Assembly: GCA_946630315.1 (NCBI GenBank)
Contig: CAMOYT010000007.1
Coordinates: 1 to 46,353, forward strand
DNA from: an uncultured Bacillota bacterium
Lineage (GTDB): Bacteria > Bacillota_I > Bacilli_A > RF39 > UBA660
Reading direction: 5' to 3'
Length of the DNA: 46,353 nucleotides
Positions 27,211-43,630 of the stretch are shown in pieces; the stretch's first letter is position 1, and every line of letters starts with the position of its first letter. A program made the position numbers and the translations under genes. Below the pieces are notes generated by a model, which was not told the origin of the DNA, made no database searches, and saw only the letters and a program-made list of their open reading frames with translations.

Positions 27211-28389
27211 TTAATATTTCATAAATGTTTTAGCAATCTTACTACCTATTTTAAATAATGGGTTTTCTAGTTTTTTACGAGCATTTTTTAATTCTTTTCT
27301 TATTTCTATATGTTGTGGGCAGTGCTTTTCACATTTACCACATTCTATACAGTTAGAGGCAGAAGTTGAGTCTTTTCTTAGTGCAGTGCACATAAAATAC
27401 TCTTTTAAACCAGTAAATTTTGAATCTGTATAGTATTTATTATAAGCTGAGAAAGTTCCAGGTATATCTACGCCTTTTGGACAAGGCATACAATATCTAC
27501 ATCCGGTACATGGTACTTTCATTTTTTCATTTATAGCTTCTACTACTTTTTTCAATAATTCTTGATCTTCTTCTGTTAATGATTCTACTTTAGCTTTATC
27601 AGCATACTTAGTATTTTCTTTTACCATTTCAAGTGAGTTCATACCTGATAAAACTGTTAGTATTTCTTTTTGATTCCATAACCAATTAAATGACCATTCT
27701 ACTGGAGTCATTTGTTTCTTATAAGATTTAAATAGTTTTTTTGCTTTTTCTGGTAGGCCATTTACTAGTCTTCCACCCCTTAATGGTTCCATAATATTAA
27801 CTGGTATTTTTTTGGAAGCAGCATATTTTAGTCCTGTTACTCCAGCTTGAGAGTTTTCATCTAGATAATTATATTGGATCATACAAAAGTCCCATTTGTA
27901 GCTATCAATTATTTTGCAAAACATATCAGAATTACCATGATATGAGAAACCTATTTGGCATATTTTTCCTTTTTTCTTTTTATCTTTTATCCATTTTTCT
28001 ATTCCTAAGTCTATTAATCTTTCCCATGATTTAATATCTGTTAACATATGCATTAAATAATAATCTATGTGATCTGTTTTTAATCTTTTTAATTCTTCAT
28101 TAAATTTATCTTCGATGTCTTGTAGTGACTTAATCATATAATGTGGTAGTTTTGTTGCGATATAGACTTTATCTCTTATTTTGTTTTTTTCTAATACTTT
28201 CCCTAATAATTCTTCACTACCTGGATAGATGTAAGCTGTATCAAAATAGTTTACTCCATTATGATAAGCTTCTAATATTTCTTGTTCAGCTTTTTCAAAA
28301 TCAAGTTTTGTTCCTTTTTTAGTAAAACGCATACAGCCATAACCTAAGACTGATACTTTATTACCATATTTATCATTACGATATTTCAT
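27211..28389 (-). CDS. Aldo-keto reductase with C-terminal ferredoxin-like domain
   Basis: An NAD(P)H-dependent oxidoreductase of the iron-sulfur AKR subgroup, 392 residues. The TIM-barrel part has GYGCMRF, the catalytic Asp/Tyr in NYFDTAYIYPGSE, the Lys in ATKLPHY and His in DYYLMHML. The C-terminal third has two clusters of Cys, CTGCRYCMPCPKGVDIP and CIECGKCEKHC, each typical of a 4Fe-4S centre. Electrons could pass between the clusters and the nicotinamide, but the substrate is unknown. It is a single-gene unit with its own promoter and terminator. Confidence 0.92.
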   Translation of the reverse strand: MKYRNDKYGNKVSVLGYGCMRFTKKGTKLDFEKAEQEILEAYHNGVNYFDTAYIYPGSEELLGKVLEKNKIRDKVYIATKLPHYMIKSLQDIEDKFNEELKRLKTDHIDYYLMHMLTDIKSWERLIDLGIEKWIKDKKKKGKICQIGFSYHGNSDMFCKIIDSYKWDFCMIQYNYLDENSQAGVTGLKYAASKKIPVNIMEPLRGGRLVNGLPEKAKKLFKSYKKQMTPVEWSFNWLWNQKEILTVLSGMNSLEMVKENTKYADKAKVESLTEEDQELLKKVVEAINEKMKVPCTGCRYCMPCPKGVDIPGTFSAYNKYYTDSKFTGLKEYFMCTALRKDSTSASNCIECGKCEKHCPQHIEIRKELKNARKKLENPLFKIGSKIAKTFMKY

Positions 28390-28437: not shown

Positions 28438-28459
28438 AAAGTAGGTTTTTTCCTACTTT
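28438..28459 (-). terminator. Terminator of the nine-gene lipid-type operon
   Basis: An 8-bp stem AAAGTAGG/CCTACTTT with a 6-base loop and a U-rich tail on the minus strand, about 50 bases after the last stop codon (28512). Confidence 0.85.
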
Positions 28460-28511: not shown

Positions 28512-29930
28512 CTATTGTTTTAATCTAGTATCTATTGAATCTTTATAGACATTTACATATTCTACTTGTTCAAAACGTGGAGCATTATTATTATATGAAT
28601 TTATTATATCTTCATAATCTCCATCTTCTAAGACATATAGATTGACTGCTATTTTATCATCTTTAACATAGGCTTTAACAGCATTAATATTATTACTTAA
28701 ATTAAGTATTTTATCTTCTATGTATGATGAGTCTACATTTTCTCCATTACTAGTAATTAGTATTTTCTTTTTTCTTCCTTTTACATATAATTTATGATCT
28801 TTTATATAACCTAAATCTCCGGTATGGAAATAATTATTATCATCAAAAGCTATTTTATTTAATTTAGTATTAGTATAGCCTTTAAAGACATTATCTCCTT
28901 TGACAATTATTTCGCCTATTCCATCTTTATTAGGTTTATCTATTTTTACATCAATATCTTCATATAACTCACCACAACTTTCATAGTCTTCACTATTAGG
29001 ATAAGCTAGAGTAAAACTAGATGATGTTTCTGTCATAGCATAAGTTTGTAGTAAAGTTAGTCCACTTTCTTTAAATACTTGGCGCATTTCTTTTGTCATT
29101 GGAGCTCCACCTGAGACAATATATCTAATATTTTTACCAAAGGCCATACCGATATTTTCTTTATAAACATCATATAATTTATTTAATACAAGTGGTACTG
29201 TACAAAAGATTGTTGGATTTACTTCTAATAGTTCACTGCCAATATTAGCAGTTGAACTCGAAAGATAAAGTCTATGACCAGTTAGAAGTGAATACATAAA
29301 ATGACAAATAGATGCATAAGTATGATGAAGAGGTAAAAACATATATACTCTATCATTATGATTAATATGTAATCTTCTTTGTAATGAGTTATAACCTGAA
29401 AAAATATTTCTTAGTGTTAATAATACGCCTTTACTTCTTCCTGTTGTTCCAGATGAGAAAACTATTTTAGCAACATCATCATATCTTTTTATATTAAAAT
29501 CTAAATATGATTTATTAAATGTATTTGGTATTTCATTCATTAAATAATAGGGAATATTCTTCTTTGTAGATAGTTCTTTAGCAATATTTTCATATTTATT
29601 AGAACAAATAATATATTCTGCATTTATCTCATCTATTCCATCTAATAAGTCTTTAATAGTCCATTCACGACAGGCAATAGCACTCTTTCCAACATAGAAA
29701 GATATTGCTAAATCACATTCCATTAAAGATATACTATTTTCACTTAATAATAAAGCAGTTTTATTCTTATAATTCTTTTGCAAAAGAAAAGAAGCAATAG
29801 ATAATGATTCTTCAATAAACTCTTTATATGATTTAGATTTATATATACCATTTTCATCTTTTTCATACATATATGGATCATTTTTCCAAGTATTATAAAT
29901 TCTTTTTATTTGTCTTTTTAAATAAATCAT
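28512..29930 (-). CDS. AMP-forming acyl-CoA synthetase/ligase-like protein
   Basis: An adenylate-forming enzyme (ANL family), 472 residues, activating a carboxylic acid with ATP. Motifs are the P-loop VFSSGTTGRSKGV (about residue 155), PLHHTYA, YAMTETSS, FHTGDLGY, and GRKKKILITSNGENV with the linker Lys/Asp region. The C-terminal domain is shorter than in most acyl-CoA synthetases but contains the hinge. It is the last gene of the operon and overlaps the GNAT gene by 4 bases. The acid could be a fatty acid or a modified precursor; nothing in the sequence decides this. Confidence 0.88.
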   Translation of the reverse strand: MIYLKRQIKRIYNTWKNDPYMYEKDENGIYKSKSYKEFIEESLSIASFLLQKNYKNKTALLLSENSISLMECDLAISFYVGKSAIACREWTIKDLLDGIDEINAEYIICSNKYENIAKELSTKKNIPYYLMNEIPNTFNKSYLDFNIKRYDDVAKIVFSSGTTGRSKGVLLTLRNIFSGYNSLQRRLHINHNDRVYMFLPLHHTYASICHFMYSLLTGHRLYLSSSTANIGSELLEVNPTIFCTVPLVLNKLYDVYKENIGMAFGKNIRYIVSGGAPMTKEMRQVFKESGLTLLQTYAMTETSSSFTLAYPNSEDYESCGELYEDIDVKIDKPNKDGIGEIIVKGDNVFKGYTNTKLNKIAFDDNNYFHTGDLGYIKDHKLYVKGRKKKILITSNGENVDSSYIEDKILNLSNNINAVKAYVKDDKIAVNLYVLEDGDYEDIINSYNNNAPRFEQVEYVNVYKDSIDTRLKQ

Positions 29931-30994
29931 TTAATTGTCCTTTCTAATAATACATATTCGTATTGATTGGTTATTTTGTCTTCTCCATATTTTAAATTAA
30001 TATTACCATCTCTTATTAAGGCATTAATACTTGGTAATTTATTTTTCTTTAATTCTTCTGATATTGAATAAGCAATAGCTTTTCCTAAGCCTTTATGATT
30101 TCTATCTACTCCAAGATAAGGCATTATATATTCTTTAGGATGGTTCTTTCTCCAAAGAATTTTAGGTATTGTTTTCATATTTACATGATAGACCATATTG
30201 TGATAATTAGGAACACTTATACAAAAACCTACGGCTTGATCTTTATAATATGCCATTCTTACCATATTCATGTTAAGAATTGTTTTATAGCTTTTAAATA
30301 CTTGCATAAAATCTTCTTTTTCTAATGGTTTAAATGTAGGAAAATCACTATATAAATCCATAATTAGTGTATATACTTCTTCCATACATTTATCAAAGTC
30401 TTTTGGATCTGGTTTTATTATTTTATAACCTAATTTTTCAAATTCCTTAAAATGTTCTGTGAACTTAGCATTATGATATGTTTCATCTACACTTTGAAAG
30501 ATATTTGATACATAATGCTCTACTACTTTATATTGATTATCTAAGAAGAATTTATAATAATATTTTAAATTGTATGGTTCTCCTGTATATGGACGTTTAT
30601 CAAATAGATTTATTTTTAGACGATATTTTATCCAAAATGATGCATCAACTGGACCAATTATTTTTTTATATTTCTTTTCTTTAGCAAACTTATAAGCATT
30701 TTCAAATATATATTTAGCTACTTTTTTATCATTAATACATTCGAAGAAGCCTATATAACAAGTCTTTTTATCATCAGGATATTCAGTAATTATGAATCTT
30801 CCTACAACTTCTTCATCTTTATAAATTAGAAATTTATTTAGAGTAAAATAATGACTTAATGGATGTTTTTCTAATAATAAATCTAAGATAGTATTAGAAT
30901 CTTCCATATTATCTTTTTTAGTATATAACTTTTTAGGTAAATCGATAAATTCTTTAAGATATTTTTCTTCTTTAGTAAATTTAATACATTTCAT
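29927..30994 (-). CDS. GNAT-like acyltransferase
   Basis: A 355-residue soluble protein with two acetyltransferase-like halves. The first contains VVGRFIITEYPDDKKTCYIGFFE and KKIIGPVDASFW, similar to YghO-type GNAT proteins. The second has QAVGFCISVPNYHNM and a possible acetyl-CoA loop LGVDRNHKGLGKAIAYS. It lies between the acid-activating enzyme and a dikinase-like protein with 4-base overlaps on both sides. A role in transferring the activated acyl group is inferred from this context. Confidence 0.72.
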   Translation of the reverse strand: MKCIKFTKEEKYLKEFIDLPKKLYTKKDNMEDSNTILDLLLEKHPLSHYFTLNKFLIYKDEEVVGRFIITEYPDDKKTCYIGFFECINDKKVAKYIFENAYKFAKEKKYKKIIGPVDASFWIKYRLKINLFDKRPYTGEPYNLKYYYKFFLDNQYKVVEHYVSNIFQSVDETYHNAKFTEHFKEFEKLGYKIIKPDPKDFDKCMEEVYTLIMDLYSDFPTFKPLEKEDFMQVFKSYKTILNMNMVRMAYYKDQAVGFCISVPNYHNMVYHVNMKTIPKILWRKNHPKEYIMPYLGVDRNHKGLGKAIAYSISEELKKNKLPSINALIRDGNINLKYGEDKITNQYEYVLLERTIK

Positions 30995-33234
30995 TTTTTA
31001 CCTCTTTTCAATATTTTTATTTTTCCAGTATGAGCATCCATTTCAATATAATCACCTGTATGGATTATCGTAGTTGCATCTTCTACTCCTACTATACTAG
31101 GTATTTTTATTTCTCTTGAAATAATCGCAGTATGTGAAAGAATTGATCCTTTTTCGGCAATGACACCTTTAGCACTAATAAGTAAGAATACCCATCCTGG
31201 ATCTGTCATTTTTGTAATTAGTATTTTATCTTTAACATCATATGTTTCATTTACATCTTCTATTACTAAAGCTTCTCCTTTAATCTTTCCATTAGATGTA
31301 GGAATACCTTCTAAGATATCTTTTTCTTCTTCTTTTACTACTTTGTTTATTTTTTTATGTCTTTTATCAAATTCTTTATTAGTAAATATTAATCTAGAAT
31401 AACTTGGAAGTGCATAATACATCTTGTAGTCTTTTTTACGTGTGCTGACTAATTCTTTTAGATTATATTTCTTATTATTAAATATTTCTTCTATTGTTAA
31501 ATAAAAGACATCTTCCTTCTTTCTTAGTCTTTTTTCTTTTACTAAGTTTTTAGATATTCCTAAGAACATACTTCTAACCATTCCATAGATACGGCTTCTA
31601 TTCAATCTTGATATTTCTCTATTTTTAATACCTTGCATTGCCCTTTTAGTAATAAATCTTGTTATGAAATCTTCTTTTATTACTATTTCTTTTTCTTTAT
31701 TTAAATCATTATAAATTACTTCTAATTTCTTTTTATCTTTACGATATTCAGATATCTTTTTATCTAATAATTTATGATTAGTTCTAAAAGTTTCACTTTC
31801 TAGTTTTAATTCTTCTAAGTTACGATCACCATATTTAAATATATAATTATCATATAGTAATTTATATTCAGCTTTAGTTAATTCATCTTTTCTATATGCT
31901 AGTTCTATTAAACTTTTAATTGGTTTTAAACTTTCTATATTAGTAATACCTGAAATATAATCATTTATCTTTTCTTCATTATATTTCTTTTTATTTAATC
32001 TTTTCTTTAATAATCCTGTAAAGATAAATGAATATAGGTCATTTACTAAAGTAATATCCCAACAAGATAATAATTCATCTTTTATTAGATTATATAATTT
32101 TATTATTTCTTTATTAGATAAATTATTATTAAAATGAGCATAGAAATAGTCATTTATTTCTATAAATTTATTATTTAATTTATCCATGTTTTTAGTTACA
32201 TTTTTTAATTCTTTAAAAGTATTATAATAAATCTTAATTTTTGTAGTTATAGGTATTTTAATACTAGTTTCATCATAAGTTTTATTTTTTACTCCTAACA
32301 TATCTTGCCATATAGGTATTATTATTTTACTAAATGGTAAGAACTTAATAAGAGTATACCAACTACTAATTTTATAATATAGTCTACCTGATGATGATGC
32401 GACCATATTATTAAAACTATTATTATTAGCTTCTACTAGTTTTTTATTTTTAGTTAAGCGATATGCTTCTTTTTTAAAGACATTACTATAGACAAAATGA
32501 ACAAATGATATAGTTAGTGGTAAACTTACACCAGGATAACTTTCTACTATATTACTATTATCTAGTATTACTAAATTATTAGTATCAATTGTTGTAATTG
32601 GTCTTGCTTGTAAGATATATATTTCATTATTTTTAATGGCAAATTCTATATCTAAGTATTCTCCTAATACTTCTTTTATTTGTTCTGATAAAACTACTAG
32701 TTTTTCTACTATGTCTTTAGCTAAGTAATCAATTAGTCCTTCATAGTAATAAACTTTATCTGTTCTATTATAGTAATATGTAGTAGTTAGTATTTTATCT
32801 TCTACTATGTTATTTCCTAGTCCTTTACCAACAACTATTACTGTTTCATTCAATAATCCTTGTGGGTTAGATGTAAAAATAACTCCTGAATATTTAGCAT
32901 TTATCATTTCTTGAATTATTACATCCATTTTTAAGTCATTTACTTTTATTTTTTTCTTTTTTAAATAATCTAATACACTCTTATTATTTATAGAATTAAA
33001 ACAATCTTGTACTTTTTTATTAATATTTCTTGGAGATACATTTAAATATGTATCAAATTGACCAGCAAAACTATTTAATTCTCCATCTTCTAAGTATGAA
33101 GAACTTCTAATAGCATATTTACCTTTATATTTACTTGTATCAATTTTATTATCTTTATTATTCCACTCTACTACATCAAATTTTGGTACATTAAAACCAT
33201 TTTCTCTTAATATTTCTAGATTTTTTCTTTTCAT
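30991..33234 (-). CDS. PEP-synthase/rifampin-phosphotransferase-like dikinase, paralogue 1
   Basis: A 747-residue protein. The N-terminal ATP-grasp (PPDK_N-like) domain has YAIRSSSYLEDGELNSFAGQ and the IQEM and ILQARPITT ends. A long helical middle domain follows. The C-terminal swivelling domain carries the phosphohistidine motif GSILSHTAIISRE (His near residue 690). In PEP synthase and rifampin phosphotransferase this architecture transfers the beta-phosphate of ATP by way of that His. The C-terminal PEP-binding barrel of PEP synthase is absent, so a small-molecule or lipid alcohol is a better guess than pyruvate. It abuts the UbiA gene. Confidence 0.85.
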   Translation of the reverse strand: MKRKNLEILRENGFNVPKFDVVEWNNKDNKIDTSKYKGKYAIRSSSYLEDGELNSFAGQFDTYLNVSPRNINKKVQDCFNSINNKSVLDYLKKKKIKVNDLKMDVIIQEMINAKYSGVIFTSNPQGLLNETVIVVGKGLGNNIVEDKILTTTYYYNRTDKVYYYEGLIDYLAKDIVEKLVVLSEQIKEVLGEYLDIEFAIKNNEIYILQARPITTIDTNNLVILDNSNIVESYPGVSLPLTISFVHFVYSNVFKKEAYRLTKNKKLVEANNNSFNNMVASSSGRLYYKISSWYTLIKFLPFSKIIIPIWQDMLGVKNKTYDETSIKIPITTKIKIYYNTFKELKNVTKNMDKLNNKFIEINDYFYAHFNNNLSNKEIIKLYNLIKDELLSCWDITLVNDLYSFIFTGLLKKRLNKKKYNEEKINDYISGITNIESLKPIKSLIELAYRKDELTKAEYKLLYDNYIFKYGDRNLEELKLESETFRTNHKLLDKKISEYRKDKKKLEVIYNDLNKEKEIVIKEDFITRFITKRAMQGIKNREISRLNRSRIYGMVRSMFLGISKNLVKEKRLRKKEDVFYLTIEEIFNNKKYNLKELVSTRKKDYKMYYALPSYSRLIFTNKEFDKRHKKINKVVKEEEKDILEGIPTSNGKIKGEALVIEDVNETYDVKDKILITKMTDPGWVFLLISAKGVIAEKGSILSHTAIISREIKIPSIVGVEDATTIIHTGDYIEMDAHTGKIKILKRGKK

Positions 33235-34133
33235 TAGATCTTACCTACTAATAGATAGATTACTACTGTTAATAACATGGTAGATTCTTGAAGATATGTA
33301 TATCTTTCTACTTTTTCTACTATTTCATATTTAGATGGATCTATCATATATTCTATAAATTTAATAGTCATCCATGTTACTAATAAAAGTAAGATTACAA
33401 CAGATAATTTACTTAGATTCCAGACTAGAATAAAATTAGTAATTATATCCATTATTGTTACTATTAAGACAAAACGTGTAGCTCTTTTATAACCAAATAA
33501 TTTTGAATATGTAGTATAATCATTTTCTTTCTTAGGATTTTTTATTTTTCTTGATACTTCCCAAATTAGAGCTGGAAAATATAGAGTGAATAAAGTCATT
33601 ATAGTAGTTAAATTAATAAAATTTAAATTATATTTAATTACTGTAAAACTAATAATATATAGGTTAACAAACATTTGAACAGGATTATGGGTAACTAGAG
33701 CAAGTGGTAAGCTTGGTTGGATTTTACTTCTTTGAAAGAACCATTTACTCATTAAAAAACCATATATGTATAAAACTATAAAGAAGATAAAATTAGGCAT
33801 AAATAAATAGTTTAATATGATTGCGATTAATTCTACTACTAAACATGATATTACTACATCTTTTATTTTTGTTTTACCTGCTGCTAGTGGTCTATCGGGA
33901 AATAATAATTTATCTGTCCTATGATCTTTTAAGTCATCAGCAACTCTTAACCATAATAGAAAAGCAAAAACTGTATAACTTCCAATTATTTCTTGTATTC
34001 CAATATTAAAATGAGTTACTCCTTGATTTAATAATACTATAAAATATATTTCGCCAAATACTATTAATCCAAGTAATAATCTTAAAAATATTGGATATCT
34101 TTCTTTATAATAAATATGTAATCTTTTTAACAT
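33234..34133 (-). CDS. UbiA-family prenyltransferase
   Basis: An integral membrane enzyme of 299 residues from the ATG at 34133 (GGTGA lies 5 bases before it; a GTG at 34154 is less likely). It has seven to nine hydrophobic helices. The first Asp-rich site is ADDLKDHRTD followed by DRPLAAGK, a UbiA signature for binding the prenyl diphosphate; the second acidic site is weaker (EVSRKIKNPKKEND). The family transfers prenyl groups to aromatic or glycerol-phosphate acceptors; the archaeal digeranylgeranylglyceryl phosphate synthase belongs here. The acceptor in this organism is not known. Confidence 0.85.
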   Translation of the reverse strand: MLKRLHIYYKERYPIFLRLLLGLIVFGEIYFIVLLNQGVTHFNIGIQEIIGSYTVFAFLLWLRVADDLKDHRTDKLLFPDRPLAAGKTKIKDVVISCLVVELIAIILNYLFMPNFIFFIVLYIYGFLMSKWFFQRSKIQPSLPLALVTHNPVQMFVNLYIISFTVIKYNLNFINLTTIMTLFTLYFPALIWEVSRKIKNPKKENDYTTYSKLFGYKRATRFVLIVTIMDIITNFILVWNLSKLSVVILLLLVTWMTIKFIEYMIDPSKYEIVEKVERYTYLQESTMLLTVVIYLLVGKI

Positions 34134-34134
34134 A

Positions 34135-34956
34135 TTATTCACCGACCCTCTCACCTACATGTACTATTGTTTCGATATTTTTCTTACTGTTTTCTAGAAT
34201 ATCTTTATCTACTTTTATATTTTTAACAATTATTATTACAGTACTTCCACCAGGTAGGAAGTATCCTTTTTCTTCTCCTCTTTTAAAAGTAGATTTATCA
34301 TAATTAATAATTTTACCTACAAGTAGTGCTCCTACTTCCATATAAATAATACTTCCATAATTCTTAGTTTGTAAAATACTATATTCTCTTTCATTTTCTT
34401 TATAGATTTTATAATTACTTGAGGAAGAACTTACAGTATGTAGTCTTCCTTTTATTTTCTTTCTTTTTAATCTTTTTCCATCATCTATATAATGAAATCT
34501 ATGATAGTCATCTAAAGCTAGACGATAAATAAATATATAACCATTTTTATAGTCTAATTTTTCATCTACTAATTCATTAATTTTATAAGTTATATTTTTT
34601 ACTTTTACTTCTAAATTTTTATTTATTTTATAAACTAATACTTTAGCATTACATGGACTAATAAAACCTTTTTTAGAAATATTTATTTTTTTTAATTTAC
34701 GAATAAAGAAATCATTAAATGACTTATAGTCTTTATCTTCATAAATAGTCATATCTATATTATTAGTATTAATAAACTTATTTATTTTATGTTTACTTAG
34801 GAATGTCCTATTATAAAATCCATATATTTTAGATAATGGTTTACTTGTAACTAACTTAGTTAGTATTGGTACTTGATATATCTTATTTAAGGTATTACCA
34901 CCAAAATGTTTTGTTTCTTCTACTTCTTTTGTTATACGATTATAGACTTGTGTCAT
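34135..34956 (-). CDS. psd: Phosphatidylserine decarboxylase-like enzyme
   Basis: This enzyme removes CO2 from a phosphatidylserine-type lipid to give the ethanolamine form. It has 273 residues. Catalytic elements are visible: RLALDDYHRFH (the Asp and His near 150-155) and the self-cleavage site PGGSTV, where Ser238 becomes the pyruvoyl group; GGST replaces the more common LGST. The N-terminal part is longer than in the short archaeal-type proteins. Its start overlaps the pssA stop by 4 bases, and the UbiA gene starts 1 base after its stop, so all three are made in step. Confidence 0.92.
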   Translation of the reverse strand: MTQVYNRITKEVEETKHFGGNTLNKIYQVPILTKLVTSKPLSKIYGFYNRTFLSKHKINKFINTNNIDMTIYEDKDYKSFNDFFIRKLKKINISKKGFISPCNAKVLVYKINKNLEVKVKNITYKINELVDEKLDYKNGYIFIYRLALDDYHRFHYIDDGKRLKRKKIKGRLHTVSSSSSNYKIYKENEREYSILQTKNYGSIIYMEVGALLVGKIINYDKSTFKRGEEKGYFLPGGSTVIIIVKNIKVDKDILENSKKNIETIVHVGERVGE

Positions 34957-35558
34957 ACTACAAATATATAAATTATTGTTACTATGATTGCGGTTAATAA
35001 AAGGATTATAGAAGATACTAATCTTGGTTTTGGTACTTTAATTTTTAATATAAATAAGATTGATACTATTAAGGTAATAATATTATAGATTATTATAAAT
35101 AGATTGTTTTTTACTAAATATGAAAGTAAAAATACTAATGGAAATATTAAAGCTGCATATGTTACAGGTAGTCCAATATAAGACTTAATTGTTTTTTCAC
35201 TATCTGCTGTTTTTATATTAAAGTATGCAAGACGAGCAATAGCAAAAATACTATAGATTATTCCTAATGGGATAAATAATAAAGAACTATTAATACTAAA
35301 TAGTATTACTAATGGTAGTGCAATAAAACTCATTACATCTACTAGCGAATCCAGTTCAATTCCAAATTCTTTTTCTTCTTTTGTTCTTTTGCATCTACGC
35401 GCTACTGTTCCATCAAATAAATCACAAATACCTGCTGCCATTAAGCAGATCATGACATATTTTAAATCAATACCAAATAAGACAAGTATAATTCCTACTA
35501 TACTTAGTGTTAATCCTATATAAGTTAATATTACTGATTTATTCCATTTTCCTATCAT
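34953..35558 (-). CDS. pssA: CDP-alcohol phosphatidyltransferase, phosphatidylserine synthase type
   Basis: A 201-residue membrane enzyme exchanging CMP of a CDP-lipid for serine. The CDP-alcohol signature is present at about residues 49-74: DGTVAR, then GIELDSLVD, with an 11-residue connecting loop rather than the usual 8, as I recall from other clostridial-type PssA. Six hydrophobic helices follow. The psd gene overlaps its stop, which supports serine as the alcohol. Confidence 0.9.
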   Translation of the reverse strand: MIGKWNKSVILTYIGLTLSIVGIILVLFGIDLKYVMICLMAAGICDLFDGTVARRCKRTKEEKEFGIELDSLVDVMSFIALPLVILFSINSSLLFIPLGIIYSIFAIARLAYFNIKTADSEKTIKSYIGLPVTYAALIFPLVFLLSYLVKNNLFIIIYNIITLIVSILFILKIKVPKPRLVSSIILLLTAIIVTIIYIFVV

Positions 35559-35570
35559 ATAAATTCCCTC

Positions 35571-38063
35571 TTACTTTCCTTTTTTTATTTCTCCTGTTGT
35601 TCCATTTATAGTTATTGTTTCTCCATCTTTTATTTCTTGCATGATGTTTGTTGCAGATACTATTGCAGGAATACCATATTCACGAGATACGATTGCGGCA
35701 TGGCATAGTACTCCACCATATTCTGTTACAATACCTTTTAATATGGCAAATTTAGGAGTCCAACCAGTATCTGTAAATTTAGTTACTAGAATATCTCCTT
35801 CTTGTAATCTATCAATCTCTTGGAATGATTCTATTACACGAGCAGTACCAGTGACAATTCCATTATTGGCTCCTAGTCCTTTCATATCAGAATTACCTTT
35901 TGTTGTATTAGAAATTCCTCCTATTTCATTTTCACTTATATAATTACGATATGAGTTATAATACTTTTTATTTTTGTAGATAATAGAGTGTAAGTCTTCT
36001 TCATCTAATTTTTCATCTAAATAGTCCCATAACTCTCCTACTTTTAAGAACCAAATATCATCTTCATCTGCTAAAACATTCTCTTTTACTAATTCTTTAG
36101 CAAGTTCAATAGTATAAATTCTAATTAGATAGTAGAATCTAGTAGATACATCTCTAAATTCTTCTCTCCACCATAGCATGTTTCTAATTTTAGTTATTTT
36201 CTTTTCTAAATCTTCGTAGTTACCTACTCCAATTTTTCTTTTTATTTCTCTTAGTTTTTTATCATACTCTTTCTTTCCTCTTTCTCTATCTTTATCTGGA
36301 GAATAGTCTTCTGATAAATTTACTAAGTCTTTAATATTAATAATAATTGGTTCTATATCTTCATAATAGCAAGGATATGTTACATCTAGTTCTTTATCTG
36401 AATGATATCCATATCTATTTATTACTTTTTTAACTTCATTGAAACAATAATTATCTATATTAGATTTAATATCTTCTACTATTTTATTTGGATTATTAGT
36501 AGCCCAATAATTAAATGTTTCTTTATCATTTCTTATTAATCTTGAGACATCCCACATTTCATAGAATGGTAATAAATGAGATATATCATTCATATTACTA
36601 ATTAGAGATAAATAATCTTTTTCTTCAATATATTTTAATAGGCTATCTTTGTTAAGGGACTGATGAACAGTATTAATAAATATTTGCCAGAAGTATGTAG
36701 ATTCACTTTGTAGATAATCATCATGAGTTAATACTTTCCATGTATTTTTAATATCTAAAATACTATTAGTATCATACATACCTTTATAATAATAATATTT
36801 ATGTAATAAATCATCTTTGTATTTTTCTTTGTTCTTTTCTCTTGTTTTTACTATTTTATTTTGAGCAATAGCCATACGAATAATGGCGATAATACTAGAT
36901 GGTGTAATACCTGTTGTTTCTCCATCTCCTTCATATGTTGGAGTTATACCATATTCATCATCAAAATCTCTTTCTTTATAACCAACTATTTTACTCATGG
37001 CCTTCTTTACTGTAGATAGATTCCAATAACATCTTCCATAGAACATATTTCCTACTTTTAGAGGTAATTCTAATTCATTTAATATTTTAGAATCTAATAT
37101 GAATTTACGTAGAGTATATTCCCAAATATATTCATATAAACTCCACATATAGGGTGTACAAACTGAAGCAGATACTCCTCCATCTTTGAAGTCTGCTGTT
37201 GACCATAAATCATTAAATCCCTGATACTCAATCTTAGTTATTTTACGTGCTTGTAAGATATATAATTCATTATTTACTAAAGCAAATTCTATATCACATG
37301 GATAACCAAAATATTCCATTATTTTAGAGAATTCTCTACCCATTTTCTTTAATAAAACGTCTGATAAGTATTTATTATTTTCATTTATTTCTACTTTATC
37401 TTCATACCAGTTATAGTAATATTGTTCTGGTTTATTTTGACCACTTACTATGTTTTCTCCTAGTCCTTCTCCTACTTCTATTAGCATAGTTTTATCATTA
37501 CCAGTTACTGGATCTACTGTAAAACATATACCACTATGAGTACTTGGTACCATCTCTTGAATAACTACACTCATAGCTAAATTATCTGTTGGAATATTAT
37601 TATTTACTAAATAACTTAGAATTACTTCAGAAAACATAGATTGGTAACATTCAATTACTTTTCTTAATACACTTCTTTTTTTGACATTAAGATAGGTATT
37701 ATATTGACCAGCAAAAGAATATTCTTCTAAGTCTTCTTTTGTTCCACTACTTCTTACGGCATATAAATTATTCTCTTTTAATCTTTTTTCAACTTCATCT
37801 ATAGTAGTTTTTGAGAAAGTAAAAGAATCAAATAAAGATATTATTTCTTTACTTATTTCAGAAATATTTTCAGTATTAAGTTTATTTAATAACTTATTAA
37901 TTTCAATATCTAAGTTATTATTTTTAATTTCTTCTAGATAAGTATCACTATCAATTACAAAACCATCTGGTACATTAAAACCATTATCTTTCATTTCCAT
38001 TAAGAATTTTGCTTTATTACCAACCTTACTTGTATTCTTTTTGTCTTTAAAATCTACTATCAT
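35571..38063 (-). CDS. PEP-synthase-like dikinase, paralogue 2
   Basis: An 830-residue protein from the ATG at 38063 (GGGGGA 8 bases before it; the longer frame begins at a TTG at 38078 inside that site). The domain order matches paralogue 1: ATP-grasp part with LYAVRSSGTKEDLEEYSFAGQ, VVIQEMVPS and ILQARKIT, a long middle region, and the phosphohistidine domain GGVLCHAAIVSREYGIP near residue 795. No PEP-binding barrel follows. The core motifs are intact. It lies between the CarS-like and PssA genes, so its phosphorylated product might feed the CTP-activation step. Inference only. Confidence 0.85.
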   Translation of the reverse strand: MIVDFKDKKNTSKVGNKAKFLMEMKDNGFNVPDGFVIDSDTYLEEIKNNNLDIEINKLLNKLNTENISEISKEIISLFDSFTFSKTTIDEVEKRLKENNLYAVRSSGTKEDLEEYSFAGQYNTYLNVKKRSVLRKVIECYQSMFSEVILSYLVNNNIPTDNLAMSVVIQEMVPSTHSGICFTVDPVTGNDKTMLIEVGEGLGENIVSGQNKPEQYYYNWYEDKVEINENNKYLSDVLLKKMGREFSKIMEYFGYPCDIEFALVNNELYILQARKITKIEYQGFNDLWSTADFKDGGVSASVCTPYMWSLYEYIWEYTLRKFILDSKILNELELPLKVGNMFYGRCYWNLSTVKKAMSKIVGYKERDFDDEYGITPTYEGDGETTGITPSSIIAIIRMAIAQNKIVKTREKNKEKYKDDLLHKYYYYKGMYDTNSILDIKNTWKVLTHDDYLQSESTYFWQIFINTVHQSLNKDSLLKYIEEKDYLSLISNMNDISHLLPFYEMWDVSRLIRNDKETFNYWATNNPNKIVEDIKSNIDNYCFNEVKKVINRYGYHSDKELDVTYPCYYEDIEPIIINIKDLVNLSEDYSPDKDRERGKKEYDKKLREIKRKIGVGNYEDLEKKITKIRNMLWWREEFRDVSTRFYYLIRIYTIELAKELVKENVLADEDDIWFLKVGELWDYLDEKLDEEDLHSIIYKNKKYYNSYRNYISENEIGGISNTTKGNSDMKGLGANNGIVTGTARVIESFQEIDRLQEGDILVTKFTDTGWTPKFAILKGIVTEYGGVLCHAAIVSREYGIPAIVSATNIMQEIKDGETITINGTTGEIKKGK

Positions 38064-38086
38064 TTTTATATCCCCCAAACTTTAAT

Positions 38087-38671
38087 TTAAAACATATTTT
38101 TTCTTAAATGCATAAAATATAGCAGCATATTTATAAGTAAATGTGTTACTGTACCTATTACTATATATAATAAATAAATCCATATACCTATTGGATAAAA
38201 CATCCAAACAACAAGTGCTACTCCAAATACGGAATCTGCTTGATCTAGGATTATAAATAATATTTTCTTTTTACCTTTAATAGTCTTTCCAGGTGTTATA
38301 TCTAATCTTCTTTTTAGAAAACTATTTGGTAATTCAAATAAAGCATAGAATAATCCTAATAAGAATCCAATTAGTAAGTTATATACTAATGTATTAGTAT
38401 GATTAATATAGAAAAAGTTTAAATGTTCTAACTTAGTATATTTCCATATGATTGAAAAAATAAGAGCAAATATTATATTAAAAATAATATAGCCAAAGAA
38501 ACCTTTCCAAGTTTTATGATCTCCAAATATTCTTTTATTATCTATAAAGTTCTTATTAAAATCCATTGGTTTCTTTAAAAAACTAAGAATATTTAATTTA
38601 CAAAATATAGAATTTACAATACCTGCTACTATGGGAGCAAGTAGTGTTATATACATCTTAACTATTAACAT
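38087..38671 (-). CDS. CDP-archaeol synthase (CarS)-like CTP transferase
   Basis: A 194-residue membrane protein of the CarS/DUF46 group, which is related to CdsA. In archaea CarS activates an unsaturated archaetidic acid with CTP. Visible motifs are GDHKTWKG (about residues 50-57), FELPNSFLKRRLDITPGKTI (about 112-131) and DQADSVFG (about 143-150), with about five hydrophobic helices. The start follows AAGGAGG. Bacteria normally use the longer CdsA; this short form sits 9 bases before the TTG of dikinase paralogue 2 and two genes before PssA. The lipid acceptor is unknown. Confidence 0.82.
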   Translation of the reverse strand: MLIVKMYITLLAPIVAGIVNSIFCKLNILSFLKKPMDFNKNFIDNKRIFGDHKTWKGFFGYIIFNIIFALIFSIIWKYTKLEHLNFFYINHTNTLVYNLLIGFLLGLFYALFELPNSFLKRRLDITPGKTIKGKKKILFIILDQADSVFGVALVVWMFYPIGIWIYLLYIVIGTVTHLLINMLLYFMHLRKNMF

Positions 38672-39767
38672 GATTTTCCTCCTTGAATATTTTGTTTTTA
38701 TTTATCCAATATGATTTAATATTACTTATTGTTTTATAATTATTTATATTTTTATATAATTCTTTTTCATATTTTAGAGAATCTTTAAAAGATATTTTAT
38801 TATTAATAATTTTATCTTCTAATAAGTCTTTTTCTTTATAGAAAGTATCTGGTATTTCTTTAGTAAATAGTTTTCTTTTTAATAATTCATTATTTATATA
38901 ATAATTATTAGTTACTTTAAAATTGTCTTTTCCAAATACTCCTTTTTTATAAATAGATAGACATGGAAGAGAACCTAGTGTTGTATATACTACTATTTCT
39001 TTTTCTTTTAATTCTACAATCATAGAATTAGTAGTATGATCTCCTATTAATTTACCTGCATGCATACAAACACTATCAACACTACCAGATAGATATTTAT
39101 TATTACTATGAGTTCTTAATATATCCATAGCTTCTTTTATATTCAAATTATCAGTTAATTTATCTGCTACTAGTTTTTTTCTTTTACTAGATTTTGAAAA
39201 ATACTTATATATTTTATTTTCTTTTATATTTGATTTTAGAGATAAGCAATTAGAAATATTAGCTTTTGTTGTTTCTTTTATAATACATTTATCTTTAGAT
39301 GTTTCTACAATAAAAATGTGATTACGATCCATTATTAAGTATGAATTATCATAATAAAAGTTATGATCATAACCACAATTGCCACCCATTTTATATTTCT
39401 TAATTATTCTTTTTATGAAGTCTACTGCTTCTTTTGCACTATTACATCTTTCTAAACATAGTCTTACTACATCCATACCAGTTAGACCTATTTTTTCATA
39501 TTTTAGTGAAGTAAATATAGCTTCATTACCTATTACTAGTCCATGTTCATTTACTCCCATTTCTGCTCCCCATAACCATTTAGGTCTTGAGATTAATATA
39601 GAATTTACTTCTTCTACTTCATCTATTTCGATATAAGATAGCTTTACTTTTTTATTTTTGTTTTTATGTCGTTTAATAAATTCTACTACTTGTATTTCAT
39701 TAGGAGAACGATCACTGTTTTTTCCGAATATTTTGTTTTTACCTATAATTCCAAAAGTATCGCACAT
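38658..39767 (-). CDS. Ntn hydrolase, peptidase C69/secernin- or C45-like
   Basis: A 369-residue protein starting MCDTFGIIGKNKIFGKNSDR, the hallmark of C69 dipeptidases and related N-terminal nucleophile hydrolases: Met is removed and Cys2 attacks the amide. Other matching segments are WLWGAEMGVNEHGLVIGNEA, GMDVVRLCLERC and GDHTTNSMIVE. There is no signal peptide. Family members cleave dipeptides, bile amides or other amides, or transfer acyl groups. As first gene of the lipid-type operon, with its own promoter, it may act on an amide-linked intermediate. It overlaps the CarS gene by 14 bases. Confidence 0.85.
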   Translation of the reverse strand: MCDTFGIIGKNKIFGKNSDRSPNEIQVVEFIKRHKNKNKKVKLSYIEIDEVEEVNSILISRPKWLWGAEMGVNEHGLVIGNEAIFTSLKYEKIGLTGMDVVRLCLERCNSAKEAVDFIKRIIKKYKMGGNCGYDHNFYYDNSYLIMDRNHIFIVETSKDKCIIKETTKANISNCLSLKSNIKENKIYKYFSKSSKRKKLVADKLTDNLNIKEAMDILRTHSNNKYLSGSVDSVCMHAGKLIGDHTTNSMIVELKEKEIVVYTTLGSLPCLSIYKKGVFGKDNFKVTNNYYINNELLKRKLFTKEIPDTFYKEKDLLEDKIINNKISFKDSLKYEKELYKNINNYKTISNIKSYWINKNKIFKEENHVNS

Positions 39768-41411: not shown

Positions 41412-41490
41412 ATTTTATTTTACTAATCCAATTAATTATTTCCTCTTCAGATGTTAAATACTTTTTTTCATAATCTATTATATTCCTCAT
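41410..41490 (-). pseudogene. Small ORF or gene tail after the cupin gene
   Basis: A 26-codon frame from an ATG at 41490 to TAA at 41410-41412, overlapping the end of the cupin gene in another frame and lacking a ribosome site. Its end, TSEEEIINWISKIK, resembles the last helix of a flavodoxin-type protein. Flavodoxin, cupin, alpha/beta hydrolase and CMD genes often occur together, so this may be the remnant of a lost flavodoxin. Weak evidence. Confidence 0.35.
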
Positions 41491-41884
41491 CACTTACAGG
41501 TTCACACCATTCATTAGATGTTCCTTCACCTGGTACTTCAACTGCAATATGAGAAAACCAAGAATCTTTTTTAGCACCATGCCAATGTTTTACATTAGCT
41601 GGTATTGTTATTACTTTTCCTGGATGAAGAGATACTGCTTCTTTTCCTTCTTCTTGGTACCAACCTTCTCCATCAGTACAGATTAGTATTTGTCCTCCTC
41701 CTGATGTTGCATGATGGATATGCCAATTATTACGACATCTTGGTTCAAATGTTACGTTTGCTAAAAAGACTGGACATTCTCCATATTCTGTTAATGGATT
41801 TAAGTAGCTATTACCTACAAAGTACTCTTTATAAGCATCATTTGGATTACCTAATCCAAACATGCATTCATGTTTTTCTTTCAT
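41468..41884 (-). CDS. Cupin-domain protein
   Basis: A 138-residue single-domain cupin. The metal-binding motif is visible as HIHHATSGGGQILICTDGEG and the second motif as PGKVITIPANVKHWHGA, giving three His plus a Gln/Glu ligand. The pattern matches cupins found beside carboxymuconolactone decarboxylases and alpha/beta hydrolases, as here. The substrate is unknown. The ribosome site AAGGGG precedes the ATG; the lipoprotein gene ends 1 base before it. Confidence 0.88.
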   Translation of the reverse strand: MKEKHECMFGLGNPNDAYKEYFVGNSYLNPLTEYGECPVFLANVTFEPRCRNNWHIHHATSGGGQILICTDGEGWYQEEGKEAVSLHPGKVITIPANVKHWHGAKKDSWFSHIAVEVPGEGTSNEWCEPVSDEEYNRL

Positions 41885-41885
41885 A

Positions 41886-42326
41886 TTACCCCTTTACTAT
41901 TTCTACTTTTATATTATTACTATCTAAATCATCTAAATTATTAATATGACCTATTTTAGTATAAGGAAAAGATGTATCAAAATCTTTATAAAATATTACT
42001 AGGCAATTACTTCCAAATAACATGACATCACCTTTTTTTATTTCTTTAGGATTATATGAATTTGTTGTTAGTTCTTTATCTAAATAGGCATATTTTTCAT
42101 TACCATTTAATTCTTGCATATTTAGTTTTAATGGTAATAAGTTGTTTAATTCTTTGACTGTTTTATTATCTTCTAAATCGATATTATATTTTTTATTATT
42201 TATAATTATTATCATAGAAGAAGTCTCCTTATTTATTTTATTAGTTTTATTTATTGTATCTTTTTTAGTATTACATCCAGATATTAATAGTAATAAGGCA
42301 ATTAATAATACTAAATACTTTTTCAT
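41886..42326 (-). CDS. Lipoprotein with cyclophilin-like domain
   Basis: A 146-residue protein with a lipoprotein signal peptide: MKKYLVLLIALLLLISGC, lipobox ISGC with Cys18. Residues about 38-145 match the cyclophilin-like fold (DUF369 type): NKTVKELNNLLPLKLNMQEL, EKYAYLDKELTT, GDVMLFGSNCLVIFYKDF and YTKIGHI. These proteins have the barrel but not proven peptidyl-prolyl isomerase activity. It starts within the stop of the hydrolase gene (TAATG overlap). Confidence 0.85.
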   Translation of the reverse strand: MKKYLVLLIALLLLISGCNTKKDTINKTNKINKETSSMIIIINNKKYNIDLEDNKTVKELNNLLPLKLNMQELNGNEKYAYLDKELTTNSYNPKEIKKGDVMLFGSNCLVIFYKDFDTSFPYTKIGHINNLDDLDSNNIKVEIVKG

Positions 42327-43309
42327 TAGATGTGTTCCTTAATAAATTCTTCTATTTTATCAAATGGAATAATATCTTTTTTATCATATAAATCTGTATG
42401 TACAGCATTTGGTATTATTAATAATTCTTTATTATCTGTATGTTTACTATTATTTATCATATCTTTATAAGCATCTTTACTTAGATAGCATGAATGAGCT
42501 TTTTCTCCATGAATTATTAATACTGCACTTCTTATTTCATTTGAATAATGAAGTAGTCTTGTATTCATTAGTGATGTTCCTGCTGTTACATTCCAACCAC
42601 CGTTTGAATTTAGACTTCTTTTATGATAACCACGTTTTGTTTTATAGTAATCATAATAATCTTTTACAAAGAATGGAGCGTCTTCTGGTAATGGGTCTAC
42701 TACTCCACCTGCTAAAGCATAACTATTATTTTTAAAATCTATTGTTCTTTGATTATTAATATTTACTCTTGCTTCATGTCTTGCTTCTTCACTATCTTGT
42801 TCATCAAAATAACCATTGCCTGCTACTCTTGACATATCATACATTGTTGATGAAACTGTTACTTTTATTCTAGTATCAAGGCAAGCAGTTTGAAGAGCCA
42901 TTCCACCCCAACCACATATTCCGATAATAGCAATTTTCTCTTTATCTACATTATCTAAGTTTGATAAATAATCTATGGCAGCTTGATAGTCTTCTACATT
43001 GATATCAGGTGAATTCATATATCTTGGTTCTCCTCCTGATTCTCCAGTAAATGATGGATCAAAAGCTATTGTTAGAAAACCTCTTTGAGCCATTTCTTCA
43101 GCATATAATCCACTTGATTGTTCTTTTACAGCTCCAAATGGACCACATACTGCAATAGCACTTAGTTTTCCTTCATATTCTTTTGGTTCATATTGGTCAG
43201 CTACTAATGTAATACCAAAATGATTTTTAAATGTTACTTTTTTATGGTTTACTTTATCACTTAATGGGAAGACTTTATCCCATTCATTTGTTATATTTAA
43301 TTCTTCCAT
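42326..43309 (-). CDS. Alpha/beta hydrolase with Cys nucleophile (DLH-like)
   Basis: A 327-residue soluble hydrolase. The nucleophile elbow is GICGWGG with Cys132, as in dienelactone hydrolase and YcjY-like proteins. The acid is likely in LIIHGEKAHS and the base is His in IPNAVHTDLYD. The oxyanion region is VCGPFGAVKEQ. It probably cleaves an ester or lactone. It directly follows the CMD-like gene (AGGAGG ribosome site), fitting a small oxidative or aromatic-type detoxification cluster. Confidence 0.85.
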   Translation of the reverse strand: MEELNITNEWDKVFPLSDKVNHKKVTFKNHFGITLVADQYEPKEYEGKLSAIAVCGPFGAVKEQSSGLYAEEMAQRGFLTIAFDPSFTGESGGEPRYMNSPDINVEDYQAAIDYLSNLDNVDKEKIAIIGICGWGGMALQTACLDTRIKVTVSSTMYDMSRVAGNGYFDEQDSEEARHEARVNINNQRTIDFKNNSYALAGGVVDPLPEDAPFFVKDYYDYYKTKRGYHKRSLNSNGGWNVTAGTSLMNTRLLHYSNEIRSAVLIIHGEKAHSCYLSKDAYKDMINNSKHTDNKELLIIPNAVHTDLYDKKDIIPFDKIEEFIKEHI

Positions 43310-43630
43310 TTAATCCTCCTTATATACTTCTTCTACTAGTGGAAAAACACTCCAAGCTTTTGGCCAACCACAATAGAAGGCAAGTTGTGTTACTAGTTCT
43401 ACCACTTCTTCTTTAGTTACTCCATGTTCTTTACCTAATACTAAGTGAGCTTTTACTTGTGGATATAGTCCTTGAGCCATTAGGGCTGATATTGTAATTA
43501 AACTTCTGTCTCTTAGTGATAGTTTATCCTCTCTACTCCATACTTCACCAAATAATACATCATCATTTAGTTCAGCAAATTTAGGAGCTAATTTTCCTAA
43601 ATTGTCTCTTCCTGCAGTTTGTTTTTTCAT
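43310..43630 (-). CDS. Carboxymuconolactone decarboxylase-family protein
   Basis: A 106-residue AhpD-like all-helical protein. The family signature is LRDRSLITISALMAQG, followed by AHLVLGKEHGVTKEEVVELVTQLAFYCGWPKA. The CxxC redox pair of AhpD is absent, so it is of the decarboxylase type rather than a peroxidase partner. It is in an operon with an alpha/beta hydrolase and a cupin. Confidence 0.9.
   Translation of the reverse strand: MKKQTAGRDNLGKLAPKFAELNDDVLFGEVWSREDKLSLRDRSLITISALMAQGLYPQVKAHLVLGKEHGVTKEEVVELVTQLAFYCGWPKAWSVFPLVEEVYKED

Follow-up and report, generated by a model that had tools for sequence, protein, structure and literature searches.

The window analysed here, the 46,353-nt stretch of contig CAMOYT010000007.1 from an uncultured Bacillota bacterium of the UBA660 lineage, contains an operon at 28512-39767 on the minus strand. 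In this operon, genes for a CarS-like cytidylyltransferase, PssA- and Psd-type head-group enzymes and a UbiA-superfamily transferase lie together with genes for two phosphotransferases (here called DkA and DkB), a tandem-GNAT acyltransferase and an AMP-forming ligase. The comparison with 88 loci from relatives indicates a conserved, mobile and dedicated phospholipid pathway that is genuine and appears to be undescribed, whereas the archaeal label given to it in a first-pass annotation of this DNA is unsupported. In our preferred reading, to which we give about an even chance, the operon spreads horizontally and encodes, on its own, a complete pathway to an undescribed aminophospholipid, in which a core module (UbiA, DkB, GNAT and AMP-ligase) would be followed by a head module (a kinase, CarS, PssA and Psd). 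This proposal is built on features read from sequence: the operon and its conservation, the catalytic residues, the modularity, the missing GGGP synthase, and the exchange of DkA for DgkA and of the head module for BtaA.

Organization of the operon

A check of the open reading frames of the window yielded nine frames on the minus strand, with the same coordinates as in the first-pass annotation. In the direction of transcription, the features are:

38658..39767, minus strand: Ntn-fold (AAT/C45-like) amidohydrolase/acyltransferase at the 5′ end of the operon (PF03417, 51 bits)
38087..38671, minus strand: CarS-like CTP:lipid-phosphate cytidylyltransferase (PF01864, 71 bits, cut-off 22)
35571..38078, minus strand: DkA, rifampin-phosphotransferase-like, proposed lipid-alcohol kinase feeding CarS (PPDK_N and PEP-utilizers domains; best PDB matches 5hv2/5fbs)
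34953..35558, minus strand: PssA, CDP-alcohol phosphatidyltransferase, proposed CDP-lipid:serine transferase (PF01066, CDP-OH_P_transf, 46 bits)
34135..34956, minus strand: Psd, phosphatidylserine decarboxylase type with a GGST self-cleavage site (PF02666, PS_Dcarbxylase, 140 bits; PRK00723, 241 bits)
33234..34154, minus strand: UbiA-superfamily membrane transferase (PRK13592, 396 bits; Pfam UbiA, 29 bits, below the Pfam cut-off)
30991..33234, minus strand: DkB, rifampin-phosphotransferase-like, proposed alcohol phosphotransferase (PRK06241.2-3, 838 bits; best PDB matches 5fbs/5hv2)
29927..30994, minus strand: tandem-GNAT acyltransferase (PF00583, 23 bits; fold of the AlphaFold2 model)
28512..29930, minus strand: AMP-forming acyl ligase, proposed acyl supplier (PF00501, AMP-binding, 156 bits)
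28438..28459, minus strand: intrinsic-terminator-like hairpin (8-bp stem, found by a scan) and T-run 3′ of the last gene

Neighbouring frames overlap by 1-20 nt or are separated by gaps of 8-12 nt, and the nine genes are packed as one transcription unit that ends in the terminator-like hairpin. The family assignment of each gene was backed by a Pfam search, with the GNAT weak by sequence, and every protein belongs to the family named in the first-pass annotation or is close to it. That annotation had also placed one promoter and one terminator. The terminator hairpin (28459-28438) was recovered, but the promoter-like site was not upheld, as such sites occur at chance level in the A+T-rich DNA of the window (95 found, 110 expected).

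Conservation in relatives

The 88 loci stem mainly from rumen and gut Clostridia of several families, cultured isolates among them. Many of the genomes are drafts, and gene absences are given here as search outcomes, not proofs. Most of the loci keep eight genes in the order CarS-DkA-PssA-Psd-UbiA-DkB-GNAT-AMP-ligase. CarS was found beside UbiA in 76 of the 88 loci, and in 8 of the remaining 12 the available upstream DNA is limited to about 3 kb at most. The co-occurrence of CarS with PssA, Psd and UbiA in other bacteria, for which the first-pass annotation had suggested a search, is supported. Adjacent genes are nearly always at most 20 nt apart, as for UbiA and DkB in 72 of 73 loci. The association of the genes in the relatives is far beyond chance.

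The four genes from which the first-pass annotation had assembled its pathway (CarS, PssA, Psd and UbiA) are all members of this conserved set, but it had passed over their conserved partners DkA, DkB, GNAT and AMP-ligase. AMP-ligase is the least conserved member and is missing or replaced in several loci. The Ntn hydrolase, which had been counted in, occurs in only 2 of the 88 other loci (L087 and L100; 51-54% identity), likewise directly upstream of CarS, and was for this reason rejected as a core member. It is a lineage-specific extra gene, and its N-terminus, MCDT, is as in its homologues. Clustering of all flanking genes of the relatives' loci revealed no further conserved member. A wider operon was rejected: no flanking gene is common to the loci, and the aldo-keto reductase gene directly downstream of the terminator (27211-28389), whose product has a C-terminal iron-sulphur segment, is unlinked.

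The proposed head module

CarS scored only 26 bits against the general CTP-transferase model, and its sole relative in the PDB is the archaeal CDP-archaeol synthase 5guf (E 7e-7), so that the earlier assignment to a short CarS type rather than to CdsA was confirmed. The score against the archaeal equivalog NF003114 was 79 bits, below the curated cut-off of 148. In the alignment of the relatives, the motifs GDxKTWKG, KRR and DQxDS of CarS are invariant or nearly so, and the CDP-alcohol transferase motif of PssA and the self-cleavage residues G236, G237, S238 and T239 of Psd are conserved. PssA and Psd both scored higher against bacterial than against archaeal models, below the curated cut-offs of both; for PssA, the values were 79 bits for the bacterial pssA model TIGR00473 (cut-off 107) and 73 bits for the archaetidylserine synthase model (240 needed).

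The first-pass annotation had raised the question of whether cdsA and a second pssA or psd exist elsewhere in the genome. An ordinary cdsA was found, beside uppS and rseP, but PssA is the only CDP-alcohol transferase of the window's genome besides PgsA, and no second psd was found there. Two or three psd genes are present in 15 of 36 operon genomes, and therefore the operon Psd looks like a dedicated paralogue in these hosts. A second Psd was found in 6 of the 7 genomes in which PssA has left the operon, versus 9 of 25 with PssA still in place (Fisher p 0.03), which would fit substitution by a housekeeping PssA. The presence of CdsA and CarS in one genome and the extra Psd in 15 of 36 genomes fit an operon that serves a separate lipid. 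The first-pass claim of a dedicated phospholipid with a serine-then-ethanolamine head is supported by these results. In this module, CarS would convert the phosphorylated core to a CDP-lipid, PssA would swap CMP for serine, and Psd would decarboxylate the serine to ethanolamine.

The kinase of the head module is proposed to be DkA. Both DkA and DkB have the layout of rifampin phosphotransferase (RPH), with an ATP-grasp, a central and a phospho-histidine domain with its catalytic His; His793 of DkA and His701 of DkB are invariant in the relatives. Phosphoenolpyruvate (PEP) synthase was rejected as an identity for either protein. They contain only PPDK_N and PEP-utilizers, lack the C-terminal PEP/pyruvate-binding barrel, and match best to the structures 5fbs/5hv1-3, which were deposited as phosphoenolpyruvate synthase and which we take to be the Listeria rifampin phosphotransferase. 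In one MAG (metagenome-assembled genome), an in-frame stop codon splits DkA into two open parts (L066; G546:C6:73533-76045).

A natural replacement points to the substrate of DkA. DkA was not found in the genomes of L033 and L060; in both, a second DgkA (PF01219, 90 and 83 bits) lies within the operon and shares 4-7 nt with CarS, and a separate DgkA is encoded elsewhere. No DgkA was found in the window's genome and six other genomes with DkA. The substrates of DgkA enzymes are diacylglycerol-like alcohols or prenols, and because DgkA takes the place of DkA next to CarS, we infer a lipid-alcohol kinase activity for DkA, with CarS activating the product. DkA would phosphorylate a free hydroxyl of the core and convert ATP to AMP and Pi via a phospho-histidine, as rifampin phosphotransferase does.

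The proposed core module

The DGGGP synthase 6m31 was the best match of UbiA both by profile (E 0.0017) and by fold (Foldseek with the predicted structure, pLDDT 86, TM 0.65/0.70). The closest solved relatives are archaeal DGGGP synthases, and to this extent the archaeal-like UbiA of the first-pass annotation was verified. The first Asp-rich motif, DDxKDxxxD, is present in the UbiA of all 78 loci read. The second is replaced in all 78 by WExSRKxxxPxxE...TYS (ExxRKxxxPxxE); an ExxRK-type replacement is also found in the distant loci L106 and L108, and UbiA of Streptomyces clavuligerus reads EFARK...TLYS at this position. The Streptomyces gene is part of a megaplasmid cluster (L109:5364-12042) for an AfsA-like protein, an ICMT-like methyltransferase, a DkB-like phosphotransferase, the ExxRK UbiA and an oxidoreductase. 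UbiA of the ExxRK type adjoins a DkB-like protein in every lineage seen, Streptomyces clavuligerus included, and DkB is its constant partner in the 72 of 73 loci mentioned above as well as in L106, L108 and L109. Based on this constant pairing, we propose that DkB makes the phosphorylated donor used by UbiA.

The GNAT is weak by sequence and clear by fold: its AlphaFold2 model (pLDDT 88) resembled the tandem GNATs 5kf1/2wpw best, and the structure search returned generic tandem GNATs only. In the proposed core module, DkB would supply a phosphorylated (activated) alcohol for the step in which UbiA attaches one lipid chain, and AMP-ligase and GNAT would attach an activated acyl chain, building a two-chain lipid alcohol that resembles diacylglycerol. 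The head module would then act on this alcohol.

Natural variants

The two putative modules are separable, and the head module is lost or rearranged while the core stays. The loci L081/L082 and L058 contain the core only, L028 has kept CarS-DkA and lost PssA and Psd, and PssA-Psd are shifted to the operon end in L059, L065 and L100. These variants are probably derived, because they are nested among complete operons on the UbiA tree.

In addition, a six-gene cluster with the order UbiA-DkB-DUF3419(BtaA)-membrane kinase-like-GNAT-AMP-ligase was found in a Clostridia genome (G658, L106:9406-17364) and on a plasmid of the alphaproteobacterium Roseinatronobacter sp. S2 (L108:523-8507), with BtaA scores of 225 and 189 bits. 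Its UbiA, DkB and GNAT are homologous to those of the operon, and profile comparison with hhalign confirmed this for UbiA (E 1e-17) and GNAT (E 1e-14). BtaA acts on diacylglycerol and adds a homoserine head. The pairing of the core module with a diacylglycerol-using enzyme therefore suggests a diradylglycerol-like core, and the cluster may be an alternative form of the pathway that installs a different head group.

We consider it possible, though somewhat less than evenly so, that these systems make an unreported class of membrane lipids, in which the altered-motif UbiA would always act with the phospho-histidine alcohol kinase DkB, DkA would be a new family of ATP-to-AMP lipid kinases, and a core common across phyla would have its head switched between phosphoethanolamine and homoserine.

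Several observations weigh against the two-module pathway. Because the second motif of UbiA is altered, chain transfer may not follow the usual diphosphate chemistry. The exchange of DkA for DgkA was probably a single event, because it is seen in two sister genomes with 86% identical CarS, and the genome of L087 holds DkA plus two DgkA genes. The BtaA-type cluster is known from two loci only; no Pfam or PDB model matched its extra membrane protein, which we tentatively read from its motifs as a CTP-dependent lipid kinase. Finally, the core-only clusters have no known head-group route.

Alternative explanations

The first-pass annotation had interpreted the operon as a pathway for an archaeal-type isoprenoid ether lipid on sn-glycerol-1-phosphate (G1P), with UbiA as DGGGP synthase followed by CarS, archaetidylserine synthase and its decarboxylase. 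The gene set CarS-PssA-Psd-UbiA and the nearness of UbiA and CarS to archaeal enzymes among solved proteins are as this would predict, but otherwise the results speak so clearly against it that we regard it as very improbable. GGGP synthase (PF01884), which the first-pass annotation had suggested looking for elsewhere in the genome, was not found in any of the 36 operon genomes tested, apart from one 50-residue fragment match, whereas the same search was positive in all 4 archaeal controls. Because the enzyme is missing from every operon genome checked, an archaeal lipid is improbable. Neither PssA nor Psd belongs to the archaeal type, the second Asp-rich motif is missing from every UbiA read, and two phosphotransferases, the GNAT and the ligase would be left unexplained. 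The G1P dehydrogenase family PF13685 was too broad for the comparison; it matches E. coli and most controls, and gave one partial 50-bit match in the window's genome. Neither the window's genome nor four further genomes with the operon gave a match to E-type polyprenyl diphosphate synthase (PF00348), and thus no farnesyl or geranylgeranyl diphosphate is expected by the usual route in the window's genome, which nevertheless has UppS. Many relatives without the operon also lack PF00348, and a tie between the missing synthase and the operon was therefore rejected. The same absence would agree with salvage of an external prenol, e.g. phytol from chlorophyll in plant-fed guts, phosphorylated by DkA (or DgkA) and DkB to the donor of UbiA. 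Such a route would account for two phosphotransferases per operon, for the invariable pairing of UbiA and DkB, and for the origin of most loci in the rumen or herbivore gut. However, DkA and DgkA adjoin CarS and not UbiA, loci that lack the head module lack DkA too, many operon-free relatives are likewise without polyprenyl synthase, and the habitat bias mirrors the genome collections, so that salvage seems unlikely.

Two further explanations were considered. CarS, PssA and Psd might use phosphatidic acid to make ordinary phosphatidylethanolamine, with the other genes as unrelated passengers. The window's genome indeed holds no other copy of either PssA or Psd, and CDP-lipid enzymes of bacteria and archaea can substitute for one another (PMC7852524). 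Nevertheless, passengers would not keep their order and coupling across families, CdsA exists beside CarS in the genome, 15 of the 36 hosts encode another Psd, and UbiA-DkB-GNAT-ligase persist without PssA and Psd; this explanation is improbable. Alternatively, GNAT and AMP-ligase might N-acylate the amine of the head group to yield N-acyl-phosphatidylethanolamine, or an N-acyl-homoserine lipid in the BtaA version, and the Ntn hydrolase would remove the acyl group. GNATs usually acylate amines, both head groups have a primary amine, and the family of the Ntn protein comprises amide-bond enzymes, all in favour of N-acylation in place of the second core chain that we propose. As L058 and L081 have kept GNAT and ligase in genomes without Psd, we doubt that N-acylation is their role.

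Distribution and genomic context

A scan of GTDB contigs, from which the best 80 loci by UbiA were taken, so that the true total is higher, yielded at least 80 loci with UbiA 63-94% identical. The hosts are mostly Lachnospiraceae, Oscillospiraceae and Saccharofermentans-like bacteria from the guts of ruminants and other herbivores; the link to this habitat may reflect sampling because the genome collection is rich in ruminant MAGs. The minority comprises some Bacilli, two Erysipelotrichaceae and two MAGs labelled Candidatus Saccharibacteria (L062, L064). The latter contain the full operon, which could be due to cross-phylum transfer or to a wrong label.

None of 144 further genomes from the window's family gave a match to UbiA. 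The protein was found in 3 of 392 genomes sampled from the phylum, its own genome counted, and in 7 of 391 genomes from the class of one Lachnospiraceae carrier, one distant homologue not counted. Because UbiA is absent from the window's own relatives and scattered over distant groups, the operon was probably acquired horizontally, and it is probably a horizontally moving unit. Searches of plasmid records with UbiA, CarS and GNAT gave no close relative, and a search with DkA gave generic PEP-synthase and RPH-like proteins only. Misassembly was ruled out, as isolate genomes and a contig of 3.6 Mb also carry the operon.

The source contig is part of a 1.46-Mb draft genome. The window also contains mraZ-, rsmH-, ftsI- and thrS-like genes (named by eye), and is therefore taken to be bacterial chromosome. 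Upstream of the operon on the same strand (41468-43630), genes for a cupin, a small lipoprotein-like protein, an alpha/beta hydrolase and a carboxymuconolactone-decarboxylase-like protein, also named by eye, lie in a row.

Comparison with known systems

A description of the operon was not found in the open PMC literature; the UbiA and GNAT operons mentioned in the lipocone paper (PMC12419801) are different from this eight-gene one. If the proposed pathway is correct, an unreported membrane lipid would be made by dozens of gut and rumen bacteria, cultured as well as uncultured. The portable pathway would mimic the last reactions of archaeal phospholipid synthesis, with enzymes that differ in part, and would bring a lipid-kinase family and a UbiA reaction that are both new. 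The operon is present in several isolates, among them Butyrivibrio sp. XPD2006 and Lachnospiraceae P6A3 and AC2028, and the pathway could aid the assignment of unknown lipids in lipidomes of the rumen and gut.

Judged by its genes, the pathway resembles the archaeal one in its last steps and is not a member of it. It shares with archaeal archaetidylethanolamine synthesis a UbiA-superfamily enzyme, a CarS-type CTP transferase and PssA- and Psd-type steps in one system. In contrast, it lacks GGGP synthase and the second Asp-rich motif of UbiA, has a bacterial-type Psd and four further enzymes, and its phosphate is apparently added late by a kinase, whereas in archaea it arrives with glycerol-1-phosphate. 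The chemistry of PssA and Psd is common to bacterial phosphatidylethanolamine synthesis (CdsA, PssA, Psd), from which the operon differs by CarS in place of CdsA, with a normal CdsA alongside, and by the proposed dedicated kinase and core module. Like rifampin phosphotransferase and the prodigiosin ligase PigC, PEP-synthase-like enzymes of the type that gave the best PDB match, DkA and DkB have an ATP-grasp, a central substrate domain and a His domain, but they share only about 30% identity with this type, have different central domains and occur in a lipid operon. Betaine-lipid head-group synthesis by BtaA shares with the operon a related core module, whose partner is BtaA in Clostridia and Alphaproteobacteria and the head module kinase-CarS-PssA-Psd here.

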